NCBI RefSeq assembly: GCF_032397745.1
Contig: NZ_CP135921.1
Span: 806,001 to 870,000 of the forward strand
Direction: 5' to 3'
DNA length: 64,000 nucleotides
Source: Bradyrhizobium prioriisuperbiae
GTDB lineage: Bacteria; Pseudomonadota; Alphaproteobacteria; Rhizobiales; Xanthobacteraceae
Part shown: piece by piece, positions 2,409 through 63,253 of the stretch
Layout of the letters: each line of letters starts with the position of its first letter
Position numbering within the stretch: the stretch's first letter is position 1
Notes under the pieces: generated by a model
The model's input: only the letters and a program-made list of their open reading frames with translations
Databases searched by the model: none
What the model was told of the DNA's origin: nothing
Position numbers and translations under genes: made by a program

Positions 2409-2804
2409 TCATTGCAACTGCTGGATTTCCTCGATCTTGAGCTGCCGGCCCCAGAGATCGAAGAACTGACCGTGGTTGAGCACCAGACGATCGTCGTCGA
2501 GCCCGGCTTCGAGCTCGCGCAGATGGGCGCGCGCCGACGGATCGTCCAGCAGACCGCCAGTGGGCCCTCTCACGGGGAAGAAAGATGCACCATTCCAGTC
2601 ATGGCCGGAGCCCGCAAACAGCACGGTGATCCCGGCCCAGTCGATCTCGGCACCAATGACATTGAAATAGGTTGAACACAGCGGCGTCACTTTGCTCTCG
2701 CCGATCGCGACCAGGATCACCAGCGCGGTGAACTCGCCGGATGATGTAAACTCCCCGGCGATCCAACGATCGAAGTCGGTGTTGTGGGCATCAGAAATCG
2801 ACAA
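2409..2804 (-). CDS. Uncharacterised protein at the end of the sel operon
   Basis: About 131 residues if started at TTG 2804; an ATG at 2867 would add 21 residues lying wholly inside the upstream gene. The product looks like a soluble alpha/beta protein with a hydrophobic strand region (FTALVILVAIGES) and no recognised catalytic motif. The TTG start would overlap the preceding gene by 14 bases, suggesting translational coupling. It is the last gene of the chain that starts with fdoG, so a role in selenium or formate metabolism is possible by context only. The start codon is uncertain. Confidence 0.6.
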   Translation of the reverse strand: MSISDAHNTDFDRWIAGEFTSSGEFTALVILVAIGESKVTPLCSTYFNVIGAEIDWAGITVLFAGSGHDWNGASFFPVRGPTGGLLDDPSARAHLRELEAGLDDDRLVLNHGQFFDLWGRQLKIEEIQQLQ

Positions 2805-3297
2805 CGGGCGTCTCCGGCATGACGTTCTCGAACAGCACCCAGAACGGCACCGGATGGGTCGCGGCATACCAGGCCTCGAACGCGGCCAAGGCTTCCGTTA
2901 CCGAGACATCCGTCACCGCGGCTTTCGTTTCGGCAGCCCCTGCTGTGTCAGTTGCTGTCCCGTCCGCCTGCTCTGCCGTATGCTGTTCGAACATGACTTT
3001 CGCCACCGGGACGAATCTTTCCACCACCTCGCGTCTCGCATCGCTGTCGCTCGCCCAGCCCAGACGTGCGCGCAACGCCGCCACGACCTGCGCGACAGCC
3101 ATAGCTTCGTCGTCCGACGCGGTGACCGCATCCGCGACCTCGCGCATCAGGTTGAGACGGCGGAACGCGAAGGCACGCTCGGTTTCCAGCGCCTTGATGC
3201 GTGCCGAGATGGTGCGGCGGAACTCATCTTCGGCCCTTGAGGCCGTGTTCGCGGCGGCCGCGAGGTCATCGATGAACAGCGCAAGCGGCATGGTCAT
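2791..3297 (-). CDS. Uncharacterised protein coupled to selB by an ATGA overlap
   Basis: The 168-residue product is rich in Ala, Glu and Arg. Residues about 15-110 read as long helices, with an acidic Ala/Thr linker and an aromatic C-terminus (FEAWYAATHPVPFW). No family is recognised. Its ATG (3295-3297) overlaps the selB stop (3294-3296) as ATGA, and its 3' end overlaps the next gene. It starts only 18 bases beyond the encoded CCA end of selC. This packing implies a shared transcript with selB and selC, so it is a candidate accessory gene of Sec synthesis or formate dehydrogenase. That role is inference. Confidence 0.7.
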   Translation of the reverse strand: MTMPLALFIDDLAAAANTASRAEDEFRRTISARIKALETERAFAFRRLNLMREVADAVTASDDEAMAVAQVVAALRARLGWASDSDARREVVERFVPVAKVMFEQHTAEQADGTATDTAGAAETKAAVTDVSVTEALAAFEAWYAATHPVPFWVLFENVMPETPVVDF

Positions 3298-5393
3298 GGG
3301 ACGCTCCGGGTGTGTGGCGGAAGAGAGAGGGAGTCGAACCCACCAAGAACCGGCTCGCGGCCCTTCCCGGATTTGAAGTCCGGACGCCCCACCAGGGACG
3401 GTTCTCTTCCAGAAGTCACATGCCCTGGATTGGCATATGCTGAAACTGTCGACTGCTGCGGACTGTCGCTGCCGGCGCGGCGAAACAGATCAAGACGGTG
3501 CCTGTTGATCCGCCGCAAGTCGCCGCGACGCAGCGTCACGCCATGCCGGTCGAAAAATTCAAGGATCTGGATCGCCACCTTGCGGCCGTTGTCGACGCGG
3601 TCGCGGAACTGCGCCGCGGTGAATTGTCCGCTCTCCGTCGCGAGCTCGACAATGATGTCCACCATCTCGGCGACGGTGCCGCGCAAGAAAAAATGGTCAT
3701 GGGCGATTTCGTCGACCCTGCCCATGCGTCCCAGCAGCTTGAGCAACTGGCGAACATCGATCTCGCGTAGTGCAAGCAACTCGGCAATATCGCGTGCTCG
3801 CGGTGGCCGGAAGCGCTCGGCATCCGACAACAGCGGCGCGATCCGCATCCAGGCCTTCTCGTCTCTGGCGGTGAGTCGCACCTCGTGCGCAGCGAGCCGA
3901 ACCCAGGCTCCGTCGAGCGCGATCTCCCGGGCGGCGGCGAGTTGTTCAAGATAGGCCCGGAACACCGGCACCGGCAGCCGCGGTTCGAGTTGCAGGCGAA
4001 GCCGCTCGAGCCCGATGCCGGACAGGTCCGGATTCTCCAGGTGAAACGCCTTCAGCGTTCCCAGCAGGCTTTGCGCCAATCGCGACCAGCAGGTCTGCGA
4101 CAACGCGAACTCCGCCCCCGCAACCGTCGCCCGGATCAGACCCAGGCGATCTGCGGTCGCACGAACCTCGGTCATGGACAACGCGCGGTCGCGGCCGAAG
4201 CCCCAGAGATCGACAAGAAACGGCGCGCGATCCAGCAAGGCGATCAATGCAGCCTCTGGTGCCGCGATGGCAGACGCCTGCAGCAGCGCCAGCCGCTCCT
4301 GAGTCCGGCGCTTGCGGCCCGGCGCGCGCAGATCGAGCAGCGTGCCGCCGCCGATGGTCCGCTGCGCCGTGGTATCACGCAGCACAAAACGGTCGCCGGC
4401 TGCTGCCGCGATCGGGCGCTCCAGCACCAGTTGCGCCAGGGTGTCGGTGCCGGGCACGATGGCGTCGTCACCGAGCAGCACGACACGCGCCCCGACCTCG
4501 GTGGCGGCATGATGCAACCGCACCGGAAACCACTGAGTCACGGGTTTCGCCTCGGACGGCAGCAGCCGCAGCATCACGTCGATCCGCTCGGTGGGCGCAT
4601 GCAGGTCGGGATCGAGCACGACATCGCCGCGCGCGATCGCATCCCTGGTGATGCCGCTACCCGCGAGATTGAGGGCGCAGCGGTCGCCGGCAAGACCGCG
4701 ATCAGCCACGCGGTTCTGCGCATGGATCGAACGCACACGCGCCTCGCGGCCGGAGGGACTGATCACCACCCGATCGGCCACCGCCACCTGTCCCGACAGC
4801 ACCGTGCCCGTCACCACGGTGCCAATGCCCGCCAGCGTGAACGAGCGATCGACCGCCAAGCGAAACCGTCCCTCGGGCGGACGCTTGCCGACGGTTGCCG
4901 CTGCTGCGAACAATTGCTGGCGCAACGTCTCAATGCCCTCGCCAGTCACCATCGAGACCGGCACGATCTCCGCGCCCGCAAGACGCGTGGGCCGCAGCAG
5001 GTTCGCGATATCGGTGGCCACCTCATCCCGGCGCACGGGCGGCACCAGATCGCATTTGGTGAGGGCGACGATGGCGTCCTTGATCCCGAGCAGATCGAGA
5101 ATCGCCAGATGTTCGCGGGTCTGCGGCATCAGACCGTCATCGGCCGCGATCACCAGCAGCGCGACATCGATGCCGGACGCGCCAGCCAGCATGGTGTGGA
5201 TGAACTTCTCGTGTCCCGGCACATCGATGAAGCCCAGCACCGAGCCGTCGGGCGTGGGCAGATAGGCGAAGCCGAGTTCGATGGAGATGCCGCGGGCTTT
5301 CTCTTCCTTCAGCCGGTCGGTATCGACACCGGTCAGCGCCCGCACCAGCGCGCTCTTGCCATGATCGATATGGCCCGCGGTGCCGATGATCAT
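3294..5393 (-). CDS. selB: Selenocysteine-specific elongation factor SelB
   Basis: The frame encodes 699 residues. The N-terminus (IIGTAGHIDHGKSALV) is the P-loop of SelB-type translational GTPases, followed by DTDRLKEEKARGISIELGFA (switch I), DVPGHEKF (G3) and TKCD (G4). Domains II-III and C-terminal winged helices follow, which bind the SECIS hairpin. SelB brings Sec-tRNA to the ribosome at UGA. The frame has no stop before selC and reads through the entire tRNA gene, so about the last 35-40 residues are tRNA-derived. The ATG overlaps the stop of the Sel1-repeat gene (ATGA), and the stop overlaps the next start (ATGA). Confidence 0.95.
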   Translation of the reverse strand: MIIGTAGHIDHGKSALVRALTGVDTDRLKEEKARGISIELGFAYLPTPDGSVLGFIDVPGHEKFIHTMLAGASGIDVALLVIAADDGLMPQTREHLAILDLLGIKDAIVALTKCDLVPPVRRDEVATDIANLLRPTRLAGAEIVPVSMVTGEGIETLRQQLFAAAATVGKRPPEGRFRLAVDRSFTLAGIGTVVTGTVLSGQVAVADRVVISPSGREARVRSIHAQNRVADRGLAGDRCALNLAGSGITRDAIARGDVVLDPDLHAPTERIDVMLRLLPSEAKPVTQWFPVRLHHAATEVGARVVLLGDDAIVPGTDTLAQLVLERPIAAAAGDRFVLRDTTAQRTIGGGTLLDLRAPGRKRRTQERLALLQASAIAAPEAALIALLDRAPFLVDLWGFGRDRALSMTEVRATADRLGLIRATVAGAEFALSQTCWSRLAQSLLGTLKAFHLENPDLSGIGLERLRLQLEPRLPVPVFRAYLEQLAAAREIALDGAWVRLAAHEVRLTARDEKAWMRIAPLLSDAERFRPPRARDIAELLALREIDVRQLLKLLGRMGRVDEIAHDHFFLRGTVAEMVDIIVELATESGQFTAAQFRDRVDNGRKVAIQILEFFDRHGVTLRRGDLRRINRHRLDLFRRAGSDSPQQSTVSAYANPGHVTSGREPSLVGRPDFKSGKGREPVLGGFDSLSLPPHTRSVP
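3315..3410 (-). tRNA. selC: tRNA-Sec (UCA anticodon), selC
   Basis: On the minus strand the gene begins GGAAGAGA at 3410 and ends TCTCTTCC-G-CCA at 3315, giving the 8-bp acceptor stem typical of bacterial tRNA-Sec, with the CCA encoded. The anticodon TCA (complement at 3374-3376) sits in the loop CTTCAAA. A long variable arm and a T-arm with GGTTCGACTCC follow. The length of about 96 nt is far above normal tRNAs. It decodes UGA as selenocysteine: SerRS charges it, SelA converts Ser to Sec, and SelB delivers it. The whole gene lies within the 3' end of the selB reading frame on the same strand. Confidence 0.96.
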
Positions 5394-6187
5394 GCGGCAG
5401 CCCCCGGCAATGGCGAAGCCGCGCGCAGTTCGGCCTCCTCAAGCTCCACCGGCGACAGCGTGCCGCGCACCGCCTCGAAGAACGGCTCCGCCAGTGCGCT
5501 GCCGCCGTTGCGTGCGCGCAGCAACAGCGCGAAGGCGGCCACCGCATCGCGCGGCACGCCGGCGCCGAGATGAAAGGCCGCGCCCAGCATGGCCTGGCTG
5601 TCGGCATCGCCGCGCTCGGCCGCCTTGGCCCACCATTCCGCGGCCACCCGCGGGTCGCGGGGAACGCCCACCGCGTTGTGATACATCAAACCGAGCCGCG
5701 CCATTGCCGCCACAACACCTTGGGCGGCCGCGGTTTCAGCCCAAAAGCGTCCCTCGGCAAGATCCGGGGCCATGACTTCGCCCTCGACCAACATCCGGCT
5801 CAGCATGTCCTGCGCCGGCGCATCGCCAGCCTCGGCGGCGGCGCGGTACAATTCGGCGGCGTGGGCGTAGTCGCGCGCGACACCGTTGCCGTCCAGGTAG
5901 AGCCCGGCGAGATTGCGTTGCCCGACGGAATCTCCGTTCTCGGCCGCAAGCGTCAGCCAGCGCAACGCCAGCGCCGAATCGCAGGTCACGCCGAGACCTT
6001 CGGCGAAACACGCGCCGATGTTGTTCTGCGCCCGCGCGACGCCGGCGTGCGCCAACGGCCCCCAGATCGCGAGCGCGGTTTCATGATCACCGGCCGCCGC
6101 GGCGTCATAGGCCATTGCCATCTGCGCTTCGACCGAAGGCTCGTCGCGTCGCCGGACTCTGGTTGCGATTGCCTCAAGCCAGCGCAT
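5390..6187 (-). CDS. Sel1-like repeat (SLR/TPR) protein between selA and selB
   Basis: The 265-residue protein consists of about five Sel1-like repeats with the pattern AxxGxxxAxxxLGxxYxxGxGVxxDxxxAxxW. Examples are near residues 55-90 (NNIGACFAEGLGV), 95-125 (RNLAGLYLDGNGVARD), 165-195 (ARLGLMYHNAVGVPRD) and 200-230. Such solenoids mediate protein-protein contact. ATG 6187 was chosen because it overlaps the selA stop by 14 bases; the frame is open to 6247. The 3' end overlaps selB by 4 bases. No signal peptide is seen, so a cytoplasmic role is likely. The context suggests a partner of SelA or SelB, but this is inferred from gene position only. Confidence 0.85.
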   Translation of the reverse strand: MRWLEAIATRVRRRDEPSVEAQMAMAYDAAAAGDHETALAIWGPLAHAGVARAQNNIGACFAEGLGVTCDSALALRWLTLAAENGDSVGQRNLAGLYLDGNGVARDYAHAAELYRAAAEAGDAPAQDMLSRMLVEGEVMAPDLAEGRFWAETAAAQGVVAAMARLGLMYHNAVGVPRDPRVAAEWWAKAAERGDADSQAMLGAAFHLGAGVPRDAVAAFALLLRARNGGSALAEPFFEAVRGTLSPVELEEAELRAASPLPGAAA

Positions 6188-7619
6188 CGCCCGCCTCCGG
6201 GATTTTGAGAGTGGCGAGATTGGCGATGAAATCCGCTTCATCGCCAAGGCAGCGCAGGTCGAACATCAGCGCCTGGTCCTCGATCCGCCCAATCACCGGA
6301 CGGGGCAACCGGCGAAACGCCGTGCTCAGCGCGGCCACCTCGCGACCGCTGCGCCGCGCCTTGGCGGACTGGATGCTCAGCCCGGCGCTGGGCAGCGTTT
6401 CCACCGGCAAAGCGCCTGAGCCGACCTGGCTGTGACAGGCGGTGACGCTCACCGTGAATGACGCCCCGATCACTCTTGCGATCACGGGCGCAAGCCGCTG
6501 CGCCAGCCCCTCGATCTCCTGTTTCGGCCGCGCCAGCATCCGGAAGGTCGGCAGCCGTTCCGAGAGACGATCCGGATCGCGATAGAGCTTCAGCGTTGCC
6601 TCCACCGCGGCGAGCCGGATCTTGTCCACGCGCAGCGATCGCTTCATCGGATTGCGGTTGAGTTTGGCGATCAGATCCTTTCGGCCAACGATAAATCCCG
6701 CCTGCGGACCACCGAGCAGCTTGTCGCCGGAAAACGTCACCAGATCGGCCCCCTTCGCCACCGCCTCGGCAACGGTCGGCTCATGCGCAAGGCCGAACCG
6801 CCGGAGATCGACCAGCGTGCCGGATCCGAGATCGTTCACCAGCGGCACCTGGCGCTCCCGGGCGAGGATCGCAAGCTCCTGCGCCGGAACCTGTTTGGTA
6901 AACCCCTCGATCCGATAATTCGACGTATGAACCTTGAGGATGAGCCCGGTCTTCTCACCGATGGCGCCGATGTAGTCCTTAGGATGGGTGCGGTTGGTGG
7001 TGCCGATCTCGATCAGACGGGTGCCGGCACGCGCCATGATGTCGGGCATCCGGAACGCGCCGCCGATCTCGATCAGTTCGCCGCGCGAAACGATCGCCTC
7101 GCGGCCGCGCGCCAGCGTGTTGAGCACGAGCAGCACCGAGGCGGCATTGTTGTTGACGATGGTGGCATCCTCCGCCCCCGTCAATTCGCGCAACAGGCCC
7201 CGCACATGGTCGTCGCGCTCGCCGCGATGGGCGCCATCGACATCGAATTCAAGGGCGACGGCGGAGCGCATGGCCGCAACCGCCGCCTCCACCGCCTGCT
7301 CGGCCAGCAAGGCGCGGCCCAGATTGGTGTGCAACACCGTGCCGGTGAGATTGAAGACCGTTCGCAGGCTCGGTTGCGCATCGGTGCCTAGCCGGGCAAG
7401 GACGACGGAGGCGACATGCGCGATGTCTCCGGTCACCTCACCATCCTTGCGAGCCTCGGCCAGTACACCGCGAACGGCGCCGACCACGGCCTGCCGCCCG
7501 AACTGGTCGAGGGTGGCGACCATCGCAGGAGAGCGAAGCACCTCATCCACCGAGGGTAACTTGCGCAAGGCAGACGAAGCCGTCCTGGTGGTCTTTTGGG
7601 GTGCGACTGATTTGGCCAT
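6174..7619 (-). CDS. selA: L-seryl-tRNA(Sec) selenium transferase SelA
   Basis: This 481-residue PLP enzyme converts Ser-tRNA(Sec) to Sec-tRNA(Sec) using selenophosphate. It shows the SelA N-terminal start (LRKLPSVDEVL, residues 18-28), NLTGTVLHTNLGRALL (90-105), the IVNNNAASVLLVLN segment, and the PLP-lysine motif SGDKLLGGPQAG with Lys300. The ATG at 7619 is 8 bases after the fdhE stop and gives the normal family N-terminus, although the frame is open to 7892. The 3' end overlaps the Sel1-repeat gene. It is transcribed with fdoGHI-fdhE and selB. Confidence 0.96.
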   Translation of the reverse strand: MAKSVAPQKTTRTASSALRKLPSVDEVLRSPAMVATLDQFGRQAVVGAVRGVLAEARKDGEVTGDIAHVASVVLARLGTDAQPSLRTVFNLTGTVLHTNLGRALLAEQAVEAAVAAMRSAVALEFDVDGAHRGERDDHVRGLLRELTGAEDATIVNNNAASVLLVLNTLARGREAIVSRGELIEIGGAFRMPDIMARAGTRLIEIGTTNRTHPKDYIGAIGEKTGLILKVHTSNYRIEGFTKQVPAQELAILARERQVPLVNDLGSGTLVDLRRFGLAHEPTVAEAVAKGADLVTFSGDKLLGGPQAGFIVGRKDLIAKLNRNPMKRSLRVDKIRLAAVEATLKLYRDPDRLSERLPTFRMLARPKQEIEGLAQRLAPVIARVIGASFTVSVTACHSQVGSGALPVETLPSAGLSIQSAKARRSGREVAALSTAFRRLPRPVIGRIEDQALMFDLRCLGDEADFIANLATLKIPEAGDALA

Positions 7620-7627
7620 CGCGCGCC

Positions 7628-8554
7628 TCAATAGCCAACGAGATAAGGATTGACGGCGCCTCGCCGATAACCGGCGTCGCGGACCAGGAGATCGAGACCC
7701 AGTGTCGCCACGTCGTCGGCCACCGGATCGAGCGCCGGATCGGCGTGCTGCAGCAGGATCTTTGCGTAGCTGCCGCAGGATTCGCAAGTTTCGGCCCGTA
7801 CCAGACCAGCGCCCGGACCGGCTTCGATCTCGTGATAGGTGATGCCCTTGGTCGAACCGCAGAGCGTGCACTTGACCCGCACCACGTGCCACAAGGTGGC
7901 GCAGAGCCAGCAGGCGCAGAAGCGGGTGTTGTGCGCGCCCGTCCAGTCCACCACCAAACTGCTCACTGGCGCGCTGCCGCAGCAGGGGCAGGCCCCTTCA
8001 CCCACCGGCACCAGACGCTTGGCATCGAGCCGTGTGGCCAGCCGCGCGACATGCACTTGCAGGGCGGCGGCGACATAGACGCGTTCGGCAAGCCCGTCGG
8101 CGGCGGTCGCGCCTGCCAGAACGTCATCCGCCAAAGCAACACGGCCTGCGGCATCGAGCCGGCTCACCTGCTCCAGCGCCAGCCGCGCCTGTGCCGGCAT
8201 CTCGATTCCGGCCGCCAGCGCGAACAGCCGGTCGAAGGTGACCTCAAGCGCCTGATCGGCGGTGAAGTTGCCACGGTCGAGCGGCGGCATGGCGAAGCCG
8301 CGGGCGCGCTCGCGCACCTCGGCCGTCGGCATCTCAGGCTCCGGCAAGTCGCTCTGGCACTGATGCTGCGCCTCGGCGAGCCCGGCCATGAAGCGCAGAT
8401 AGGGTTCGAGGTCGTGTCCCTGCGACAGCAGCGCAAAGCGCTGCGCGCGTTGCCTGAAATGGACCGTCGGGTCGGGAAGACGAACGAAGGGGGGATTGGC
8501 AATCACGCCGATCGGTGGCGAACTGTGCGCCGGGGCGCCTGCGTCACTCATCAA
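7628..8554 (-). CDS. fdhE: Formate dehydrogenase accessory protein FdhE
   Basis: The 308-residue product has FdhE features: a helical N-terminal domain with FVRLPDPTVHFRQRAQR near residue 24, then rubredoxin-like metal knuckles (CPCCGS, CWLCATLWH, KCTLCG, CESCGSY) between about residues 185 and 260. FdhE is a cytoplasmic protein that binds the catalytic subunit of respiratory formate dehydrogenases and is needed for their activity before Tat export. A second ATG lies one codon in. The gene sits 77 bases after fdoI and 8 bases before selA. Confidence 0.93.
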   Translation of the reverse strand: MMSDAGAPAHSSPPIGVIANPPFVRLPDPTVHFRQRAQRFALLSQGHDLEPYLRFMAGLAEAQHQCQSDLPEPEMPTAEVRERARGFAMPPLDRGNFTADQALEVTFDRLFALAAGIEMPAQARLALEQVSRLDAAGRVALADDVLAGATAADGLAERVYVAAALQVHVARLATRLDAKRLVPVGEGACPCCGSAPVSSLVVDWTGAHNTRFCACWLCATLWHVVRVKCTLCGSTKGITYHEIEAGPGAGLVRAETCESCGSYAKILLQHADPALDPVADDVATLGLDLLVRDAGYRRGAVNPYLVGY

Positions 8555-10295: not shown

Positions 10296-13200
10296 TTAAG
10301 CCACCGGGCCCGAGATGGGCTCGATATTGACCAGGAACGCCTTGTATTCAGGCGTCTCGATATTGGCGTCGCCGACAAAGGGCGTGAGCGAGTTCGGGCC
10401 GAAGCCTTTCTTCGCCGCCCCCATGAAGCCCCAGTGCAGGGGAATGCCGACCACGTGCACCTTGCGACCATCGCAGATCAAGGGCTGGATGCGTTTGGTC
10501 ACCACGGCCTTGGCCTTCACCGATCCGCGCTTCGACCACACCCGCACCCGGCCTCCGTCCTGGATGCCTCTTTCCTTGGCCAGTTCCTCGCTGATTTCGA
10601 CGAAGAACTCAGGCTGCAGCGCCGCGTTGATCCGGGCATGCTTGGTCCAGAAGTGGAAGTGCTCGGTCAGGCGGTACGACGTCGCCGCGTACGGATAATC
10701 CTTGGCGTCGCCGAACTGCTCCATGTCGCCGCGGAACACCCGGGCCGCCGGATTGCCCCGGATCTTTGGGGCAACCAGGTTGGCGATCGGGGCTTCGAAC
10801 GGCTCGTAGTGCACCGGGAACGGCCCTTCCCGCATCATGCCGCGGGAGAACAGACGCGCCGAGCCTTCCGGGTTCATGATGAAGGGACCGACGTCGGCAG
10901 GCTTCGACGCCGGCGCGATGTCGGGCACGTCGTACCCCGTCCACTTGATGCCGTCCCACCACAACAGCTTGCGGCTCGGATCCCAGGGCTGGCCGTTGAT
11001 ATCCGCCGACGCCCGATTGTAGAGGGTGCGCCGGTTGGCGGGCCATGACCATGCCCAGTTCGGGAACGCGCCGGTTTCGTCCGGATCGCGGTTGTCGCGG
11101 CGGGCCATGTTGTTGCCGGCCTCGGTGAAACAACCCGAATAGATCCAGCAGCCACAGGCCGTCTTGCCGTCGTCGCGCAACGCTGCGAAGCCGGCAAGCT
11201 GCTTGCCCTTTTGCAGCAACAGCTTGGTCGGATCATTGGGATCCGGCACGTCCTCCAGCACGGAGCCGTTCATCTCCTTGGCCAGCTCTTCCGGCGCCGG
11301 TTCCTCCGGGTCCTTGTAGCGCCAGTCCAGATTGAGGATCGGCTCGGGGACCGGACCACCCTCTTTCTGATAGAGCGCCCTCAGGCGCAGGAAGATCTGC
11401 CCCATGATCCAGGTGTCGTGCCTGGCTTCACCAGGCGGGGTTCCGGCCGCCCAATGCCAGTGCAGCTGCCGGCCGGAATTGGTCAACGAACCGGTGTCCT
11501 CGGCAAAGCAGGTGGACGGCAGCTGGATGACTTCGGTCTGGATCTTCGACGGATCGACGTCGTTGAATTCGCCGTGATTGTCCCAGAACCGCGCCGTCTC
11601 GGTGTCGAGCGGATCCATGGTGACGAGGAACTTCAGTTTCGACAGCCCGTCGGTGACCTTCTTGCGGTTCGGGAATGAGAGCAACGGATTGAAGCCCTGG
11701 CAGAAATAGCCGGTCATCTTGCCGTCGTTCATCATATCGAACACGCGCAGCACGTCGTAGCCCGGCACGTCGAGCTTGGGCAGCCAGTCGTAGGCGAAGT
11801 TGTTCTCCGGCGTCGCAGCGTCGCCCCACATCGACTTCAGGAAACTGACGAAGAACTTCTTGTAGTTCTGCCAGTAACTCATCTGGTTCGGCAGCAGCGG
11901 CTTGAACCCGCGTGTCGACATGTAGGTGTCGAACGTCGGCTCCCGCTCGTTCGGGATCGTCAGATAACCGGGAATCAGGTTCGACATCAGGCCGAGGTCG
12001 GTCAGCCCCTGGATGTTGGAGTGGCCGCGCAAGGCATTCATGCCGCCGCCGCGCACGCCGATATTGCCGAGGATCAGTTGCAGCATCGCCATGCAGCGGA
12101 TGTTCTGCGATCCCTTCGAGTGCTGGGTCCATCCCAGCGCGTACATCGACGTCATCGTTTTGGTCTTCGACGAACACTCGCCGATCATCTCCGCCACCTT
12201 CAGGAACTTGTCCCTGGGCGTGCCGCAGATCCGCTCGACCAGTTCCGGCGTATAGGCCGCCACGTGCTGTTTCAGCAGGTTCCAGACGCTGCGCGGATGA
12301 TCGATGTTGGAGATGACATAACCGTCCGGCCCCAATTCGTAGTCCCAGCTCGACCGGTTGTAGTCGCGCTTGGCTTCGTCATAGCCCGAGAACAGCCCTT
12401 CGCTGTAGCTGAAACCCTCCTTGACCACATACGGCGCATTGGTGAACGCCTTCACATACTCCCACTGCACCTTGTCGTTCTTGATGCACTGGTTGATGAC
12501 GCCGAGCAGGAATGCGATGTCGCTGCCCTGGCGAATCGGCGCGTAGAAATCCGCGACCGATGCCGTGCGGGTGAAGCGCGGATCGACCACGATCAGCTTT
12601 GCGCCACGGTAATGCTTGGCCTCCGTGACCCATTTGAAGCCACAGGGATGCGCTTCGGCGGCGTTGCCGCCCATCACGATCACGAGATCCGTGTTCTTGA
12701 TATCGGTCCACGAGTTCGTCATCGCACCACGGCCGAATGTTGGAGCCAGACTGGCTACCGTAGGGCCGTGTCAAACACGCGCTTGATTGTCGAACGCCAG
12801 CATCCCGGTGCTGCGCACCACCTTGTAGGTCGCCCAGGCCGTCTCATTGGTGGTTGCCGAGGCTGCAAGGAAACCGGTGGTCAGCCATCGGTTCACGGTG
12901 ACACCGTCGCGGTTCCTGGCGACGAAATTCTTGTCGCGATCGTCCTTCATCAGCCGCGCGACGCGATCGAGCGCGACATCCCAGGTCACGCGCTCGAACT
13001 TGTCCGACCCCGGCTTGCGGATCATCGGATACTTCAGGCGAGTGTCCGCGCCCAGCATGTCGAGCAGGGCCGCGCCCTTCGGGCACAACGTGCCGCGATT
13101 GGTCGGGTGATCGGAATCGCCCTCGATATGGGTGACCTTCGCGGTCTCCCCCTTCGCGAGATTGCCCTTGGAATACATGATGATGCCGCAACCCACCGCA

Positions 13201-13370
13201 CAATAGGTGCAGGTGTTGCGTGTCTCGGTGAGAGTCGCGAGCTTGAAGGGGCGGATCGCCGCTGCATACGCGCTTTCGGTTTCGCCAAACCCGAGCGCGC
13301 CCAGTGTCGTCCCCGCCACTCCCGCACCCGCGCCCTTCATAAACTGGCGCCGCGAGAGTTCGATATTCAC
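10296..13370 (-). CDS. fdoG: Formate dehydrogenase alpha subunit, selenoprotein (in-frame UGA = Sec200)
   Basis: Two apparent ORFs (12771-13370 and 10296-12722) are one 1024-residue gene in a single frame, interrupted only by TGA at 12771-12773. The context is Gln-Ala-Arg-Val-(TGA)-His-Gly-Pro-Thr-Val, the conserved Sec site of FdnG/FdoG. GTG 13370 follows a GGGAGG RBS. A twin-arginine signal (SRRQFMKG, residues 6-13), an N-terminal [4Fe-4S] site (Cys54, 57, 61 and the later GTLCPKG) and molybdopterin-binding regions follow. The enzyme oxidises formate at a bis-MGD Mo/W centre ligated by Sec. It leads the fdoGHI-fdhE-selA chain. A Tat-exported periplasmic active site is inferred. Confidence 0.96.
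12725..12773 (-). promoter_or_regulatory. bSECIS element: Sec UGA codon with downstream hairpin
   Basis: Immediately 3' of the UGA the minus strand reads CACGGCC, then TAGCC-AGTCT-GGCTC, then AACATTCGGCCGTG. The inner stem AGCC/GGCT with apical loop AGTCT keeps the GU that SelB recognises. An outer GGCC/GGCC pairing extends the helix. As I recall it, the E. coli fdnG element has the same apical loop. SelB would bind here to recode UGA at codon 200. Confidence 0.9.
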
Positions 13371-62949: not shown

Positions 62950-63095
62950 GTGTGAACTCAATGCCCCCCCTCGGTGGGCGCACGAAGCGCCTCTCTCCAG
63001 ATTGTCCAACGATGCAGTCCTTTTGCCTGAGAGTTTCCCCGGAGTTGCCCTTCGGCGCCGGCGCGGGAAAGGCCCCTCGCCGATCTCTCCCAACA
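62950..63095 (-). ncRNA. Glycine riboswitch, orphan
   Basis: On the minus strand the block contains GGGAGAGA, then GGCGCCGAAGGGCAAC (complement near 63044-63059), ACTCTCAGGCAAAAGGAC (complement near 63016-63034) and GGACAATCTGGAGAG. These are the conserved core of the first glycine aptamer and its linker. A second, poorer half follows (CCACCGAGGGGGGGCA, 62962-62978) and then fades. Downstream on this strand is only the 3' end of the oppositely oriented broken LysR gene, so no gene is in place to be controlled. Confidence 0.85.
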
Positions 63096-63253
63096 TCGTC
63101 TGATCGGACGTTGCGTATTTTCGCGGTGTCGTGTCGTCGTCCCTCCTTGGCAATGGAGCTAGATTGTCGGTCGAGACGAGCGGGTGGAACCACCGCAGGT
63201 TTGGCAGCGAGAGAGTAATACGTCGGCGACTCACATCGGCGATCACATAGCCC

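Follow-up and report, generated by a model that had tools for sequence, protein, structure and literature searches.

Nesting of the tRNA-Sec gene in the selB reading frame of Bradyrhizobium prioriisuperbiae and retention of its frame among relatives

Can the 3' end of a protein gene be a complete tRNA gene at the same time, and if it can, is such an overlap maintained or merely tolerated? The question is raised by selB and selC of Bradyrhizobium prioriisuperbiae, which we analysed in a window of 64,000 nt (contig NZ_CP135921.1, positions 806,001 to 870,000 of the forward strand; positions in this genome are counted from the first letter of the window). The reading that we favour, with a probability of roughly 0.55, is that selB and selC form a nested gene like those reported in Mukai 2021 (Int J Mol Sci 22:4605, PMC8124441). 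SelB would be translated through the tRNA, selC would be derived from the shared transcript, and each transcript would meet either one fate or the other.

A complete tRNA-Sec gene within selB

ARAGORN found one tRNA in the whole window, a tRNA-SeC at 3315..3410 on the minus strand with anticodon tca. The Rfam tRNA-Sec model (RF01852) matched 3410..3319 with 74.1 bits (gathering score 47, E 2.5e-13), so that both the UCA anticodon and the fit to the covariance model identify the gene as selC. Its host is the selB ORF at 5393..3294 on the same strand, 699 codons long according to the ORF list and its translation. Residues 1-629 matched TIGR00475 (selB) with 432 bits, well above the equivalog cut-off of 242.25, and EF-Tu domains and winged helices (SelB-wing_2, SelB-wing_3) are present. 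The core of the protein, up to the RLDLF motif, occupies 3483..5393, its 3' limit at 3483 being set by the motif that also served for the linker measurements below, and an in-frame linker of 72 nt (3411..3482) leads from the core to the tRNA.

A sequence-only reading of this DNA had claimed that the selB frame has no stop before selC and encloses the whole tRNA, and both points were confirmed by the ORF list, ARAGORN and the translation. The 96 nt of selC, encoded CCA included, correspond to selB codons 662-693, that is, 32 codons translated as GREPSLVGRPDFKSGKGREPVLGGFDSLSLPP; the peptide singled out in that reading, GRPDFKSGKGREP, is part of this tRNA-derived tail. The last six codons (HTRSVP) and the TGA stop follow at 3294..3314. 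The TGA itself (3296..3294) shares an ATGA with the start codon (3297..3295) of the next ORF, just as had been proposed. This ORF (2791..3297, minus strand, 168 codons) gave no family match in Pfam or NCBIfam at E 0.001. When the transcript 3470..3280 was folded, the tRNA arms formed in context and the energy was ordinary (z -0.58).

The minus strand of the window carries a selenocysteine cluster of fdoG, fdoH, fdoI, fdhE, selA, a Sel1-repeat gene and selB, as assigned by Pfam and NCBIfam. The Sel1-repeat gene (5390..6247, minus strand, four stretches of Pfam Sel1) ends in a 4-nt overlap with the ATG of selB, and selB therefore has an ATGA overlap at each end (5390-5393 and the stop end). The longest ORF of selA spans 6174..7892 on the minus strand; the Pfam SelA match (545 bits) begins at residue 179 and the N-terminal domain at residue 109, and the true start probably lies further inside. 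The selenocysteine formate dehydrogenase gene fdoG (10296..13370, minus strand) matched TIGR01553 on both halves with its TGA read as U. The in-frame UGA is codon 200 (12773..12771), and a SECIS element (Rfam RF01989, 84.8 bits) lies there at 12718..12776 on the minus strand. Hence, the window holds selA, selB, selC and a UGA-containing gene with a SECIS, a set for selenocysteine decoding. A glycine riboswitch aptamer (45.2 bits) was also seen at 63006-63102 on the minus strand.

In Escherichia coli, selC stands alone, apart from selB, and has a promoter of its own; like the selC of the window it provides a tRNA-Sec that serves formate dehydrogenase selenoproteins. Nested genes were reported in Mukai 2021 from diverse Alphaproteobacteria, with the whole tRNA-Sec in the selB frame, a tRNA length of 96 or 93 nt that keeps the frame, and in many cases a selB stop that overlaps the next ORF. 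The hypothesis put forward there is that processing of the tRNA makes the selB message stop-less and in this way represses SelB; the limitation of SelB by tRNA-Sec supply that the sequence-only reading suggested belongs to this model. A 2026 review (PMC13188914) repeats this account, and no experimental follow-up of the nested selB/selC model was found in the literature searched. The arrangement and its proposed mechanism have thus been in print since 2021, and this genome adds one member; what is new here is the quantitative frame statistics across relatives.

The window shows no difference in kind from the published nested genes: selC lies on the strand of selB, the 96-nt tRNA stands in frame with GGA (Gly) as its first codon and Pro at the CCA end, the stop overlaps the next start, and formate dehydrogenase and selA adjoin. 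One detail does differ. The published model leaves the next ORF leaderless after excision of the tRNA, whereas here a Shine-Dalgarno-like GGAG (3307..3304, minus strand), 6 nt before the next start, sits between the tRNA end and that start. The next ORF would therefore keep a start signal after excision, and the model would need amending for this locus. In the partial overlaps of Dyella and Luteibacter (PMC8124441), selB runs into the tRNA in the frame seen in the window but stops at the TGA at tRNA positions 46-48, while the window frame runs beyond the tRNA end; this inside-stop type was also found here, for example in Dyella marensis (L345). As far as it is cited in Mukai 2021, the tRNA-Lys within cox1 of Armadillidium vulgare mitochondria likewise has a whole tRNA in the coding frame and direction, although in a compact organelle genome and in an unrelated gene pair.

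Frame and stop among the relatives

The window by itself says little about whether the open frame is kept, because all three frames of its tRNA are free of stop triplets. An open frame by chance would suffice for this one genome; for the clade it is rejected by the comparisons of frame and near stop that follow. Whole genomes were searched with the tRNA-Sec model. The 391 genomes of the family gave 125 loci, and sampling 397 genomes from the order, 385 from the class and 398 from the phylum added 27, 54 and 40 more. Of these 246 loci, one ran off its contig and 65 had no SelB C-terminus upstream as judged by one tblastn query, which a distant SelB may escape. A SelB C-terminus upstream was found at 116 family, 16 order, 28 class and 21 phylum loci. 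We added 80 named loci, which were chosen by similarity to the SelB of the window, tail included, and hence lean towards read-through (68 read through, 4 stop inside the tRNA, 6 stop before it, and for 2 the stretch examined contains no tRNA-Sec downstream). ARAGORN placed one extra 5' base on some named tRNAs, which was corrected by rule, and removal of duplicates reduced 218 rows to 176.

Read-through in frame 0 is the majority state in the family (93/116 loci), and an error or lost stop in a single genome is thereby rejected. The remaining family loci comprise one read-through in frame 2 (L055), nine stops inside the tRNA, twelve before it and one locus cut by a contig end. Relatives with a selB stop before the tRNA, which the sequence-only reading had named as the evidence that would speak against it, thus do exist. 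The order sample was divided into 6 frame-0 read-through loci and 10 that stop before the tRNA, and the class sample into 2 read-through loci, 1 with a stop inside and 25 with a stop before. In the phylum sample selB stops before the tRNA in 21/21. Where it does so in the class and phylum samples, the frame of the tRNA relative to selB is evenly distributed (14, 15, 17).

The linker between SelB and tRNA offers a sharper view of the frame. It takes 26 lengths from 21 to 144 nt, and its length is a multiple of 3 in 169/169 measured read-through loci, a count that includes duplicates between sources and is taken from a table without the 40 phylum loci and 19 rows lacking a clear SelB end motif (L055 among them). 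As a control, the 36 loci stopping before the tRNA gave linker remainders of 8, 16 and 12 over the three frames. On the tree, the 133 distinct read-through loci need at least 60 changes of linker length, against 14 losses of the overlap (P 4e-17, counting each loss as a frame change). Among read-through rows, the selection of rows itself makes every counted change a multiple of 3, so that this test is carried by the losses and by the whole-tree comparison. With the named loci left out, the remaining 100 read-through rows still require 50 or more length changes. When all 176 loci are taken together on the tree, between 53 and 72 of the 92 linker changes keep the frame, depending on the treatment of ties, and compared with one third this gives P values from 1.5e-6 (ties against) to 1.3e-18. 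Among loci stopping before the tRNA, the frame was kept in 11/24 changes with ties counted in favour (P 0.14). All these counts come from a single FastTree tree with midpoint rooting and assume independent changes on a known tree.

If a frameshift struck the linker, the tRNA would be open in the new frame in 77% of placements, yet only one locus (L055, genome G128) reads through in another frame; it is therefore frame 0 itself, rather than any open frame, that is kept. In L055 the shift lies in the SelB end before the linker, and is either real or an assembly error. Family tRNA-Sec genes that do not follow selB carry frame-0 stops in 5/9 distinct tRNAs versus 0/56 for read-through, a comparison to which we give no weight, because it is confounded by descent and read-through is partly defined by the absence of stops. 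The tRNA is 96 nt long in 102/102 read-through loci, compared with 75/133 of the others.

A second regularity lies behind the tRNA. In 70/133 distinct read-through loci, the window included, selB is coupled by a 4-nt NTGA overlap to a next ORF of 50 codons or more; in the other 63, five overlap otherwise, 29 have an ORF starting within 45 nt behind the stop, and 29 have none. The frame-0 stop begins no more than 36 nt past the tRNA end in 62/70 coupled and 59/63 uncoupled loci. Meanwhile, frames 1 and 2 have such a stop in only 3/70 and 3/70 coupled and in 10/63 and 7/62 uncoupled loci, and the control loci gave 23/71, 21/72 and 22/74 in the three frames. Averaged by genus over 29 genera, the near-stop share is 0.91, 0.09 and 0.09 for frames 0, 1 and 2. 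By these comparisons, frame and near stop are preserved across relatives in the 29 sampled genera well beyond chance. Because the linker stays a multiple of 3 and the near frame-0 stop is kept, the long selB frame is very probably translated through the tRNA to its stop.

The overlap has nevertheless been lost in about 14 separate lineages (parsimony gives 15 state changes, drawn as 14 losses). In most of these losses the linker changed frame; in one group of six, an in-frame stop within the tRNA is the only cause. Since it was lost so often and is absent from all 21 phylum-sample loci with selB upstream, the overlap is dispensable on this comparative evidence. Losses of nesting in Methylopila and some Ensifer, and remnants in Sinorhizobium, were described in Mukai 2021.

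Several single loci showed further rearrangements. In L120 (G291, around 463-1600), the 5' half of selC occurs a second time, 1037 nt upstream of selC, with at least 42 identical nt. This copy stays in the selB frame: an insertion has broken up the nested gene, and the tRNA-Sec downstream of it is intact; the case recalls the Sinorhizobium meliloti transposon of Mukai 2021 (PMC8124441). In Microvirga calopogonii (L336) and Ensifer sesbaniae (L347), selB ends in a broken tRNA-Sec remnant, and no tRNA-Sec was found downstream within the stretch examined. Some family genomes carry two or three tRNA-Sec genes. Upstream of four of the family loci (L098, L099, L087, L114) lies a more remote SelB, with about 50% identity and a stop ahead of the tRNA, which suggests a second set of Sec genes. 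Records under the names Mycobacterium sp. KBS0706 (L291) and Candidatus Eremiobacteraeota (L343) hold an alphaproteobacterial-like selB (67% and 59% identity) with a nested or partly overlapping selC, and are misnamed, mixed or transferred. Five tRNA-Sec of the order sample (L156-L158, L162, L163) have discriminator A, their ends reading ACCA and not GCCA, and there selB stops 9-22 nt ahead of the tRNA; an A73 type was mentioned in Mukai 2021 for Methylopila-like species.

Competing readings of the retained frame

In the nested-gene reading, SelB would be translated across the whole tRNA-Sec to the stop just behind it, and selC, most likely without a promoter of its own, would be cut from the same operon transcript. 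A single transcript would then give either full-length SelB, or tRNA-Sec together with a stop-less selB message. Such messages could be rescued and cleared by tmRNA, since a tmRNA was found in the genome. We infer that a selC promoter is absent, that selB messages lose the tRNA by excision, that SelB is lost when this occurs and that the ratio of SelB to tRNA-Sec is set in this way, with a presumable trade-off between the two. More tentatively, ribosomes crossing selC might block excision of the tRNA while excision destroys the message, so that selB translation would govern the ratio; selection would then keep the frame and the near stop for that, and not for the peptide or the next gene. If this is true, the supply of a special tRNA would be tied to that of its carrier factor by a single transcript that can meet only one of two fates, with no dedicated regulator involved. 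An arrangement that was conserved and perhaps accidental now appears as one whose frame and near stop are maintained, even where the overlap with the next gene is missing.

The strongest competitor regards the nesting as a tolerated by-product, with an inert tail and an overlap that regulates nothing. Frame 0 would persist simply by ending soon with a harmless tail, while the other frames would run on into the next gene as long or sticky extensions. The repeated loss of the overlap, the scarcity of near stops in frames 1 and 2 and the lack of any sign of amino-acid-level selection on the tail all agree with such a view. If an end before the tRNA were equally good, however, more loci should have adopted it than the 12/116 of the family that do, and the by-product account does not explain why 59/63 uncoupled loci retain the near frame-0 stop. 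We therefore regard it as somewhat unlikely. On the sequence evidence, two options remain: translating the tRNA may be what counts, or the other frames may do harm for want of a near stop.

Alternatively, selC might have its own promoter inside selB, which would make the tRNA supply independent and the overlap a matter of position only; this is compatible with translation through the tRNA. The sequence-only reading had named a dedicated selC promoter, with selB transcripts ending before 3410, among the evidence that would speak against it. Consensus scans gave no recognisable promoter: no promoter-like site was found in 2700..3800 of the window, a weak negative given that only 0.2 sites were expected by chance. 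Within the 90 nt before selC, such sites were found at 1/102 read-through and 0/10 inside-stop loci, at 4/44 loci with a near earlier stop, at 5/23 with a farther stop and at 12/63 without selB upstream, the corresponding shuffled shares being 0.01, 0, 0.04, 0.05 and 0.06. Read-through loci thus stay at the shuffled level, although the 63 loci without selB upstream are also poorer in G+C, and the low share at loci with a close earlier stop marks the scan as weak. Synonymous conservation at the selB 3' end is not raised either (z 0.36 and -0.91 in the last two bins), so that neither approach, both being weak negatives, revealed an embedded promoter. Promoters of a non-consensus type would escape these scans, and a selC promoter was proposed in Mukai 2021 for Shewanella, where selC lies on the opposite strand. 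Taken with the scans, an independent promoter seems improbable to us.

The tail might instead be a functional element of SelB, such as an additional stretch for RNA binding, and the specific retention of frame 0, rather than of any open frame, would suit this. The sequence-only reading had called the tail an odd extension of SelB domain 4; that description holds for its length, but no sign of peptide function was found. In single changes between closely related tRNAs no amino-acid-level selection on the tail was seen, the share of frame-0 synonymous changes being no higher in read-through loci (366/1456) than in controls (26/103). The linker has no fixed length, and the SelB of many relatives lacks the tail altogether. 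A functional tail is hence very unlikely.

The 4-nt overlap in 70 of the 133 read-through loci might suggest that selB crosses selC only to bring its stop to the next start, where re-initiation would drive the next gene. Because the frame survives 27 or more length changes in the 63 uncoupled loci, this overlap is, by the sequence comparison, not the sole reason for frame retention, even if re-initiation may act over short gaps in part of them; with a Shine-Dalgarno-like word of its own at the next ORF in 52/70 coupled loci (22.9 expected), operon coupling as the whole explanation has hardly any probability left.

Besides its bearing on regulation, the nesting may matter for annotation. In the PLSDB gene table, which omits pseudogenes and RNA genes and is incomplete, one named record is without a selB at its nested locus. 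In this record of Terrarubrum flagellatum (L353, NZ_CP091852.1), two locus tags are skipped, and the nested selB is perhaps unlisted because it was called a pseudogene.
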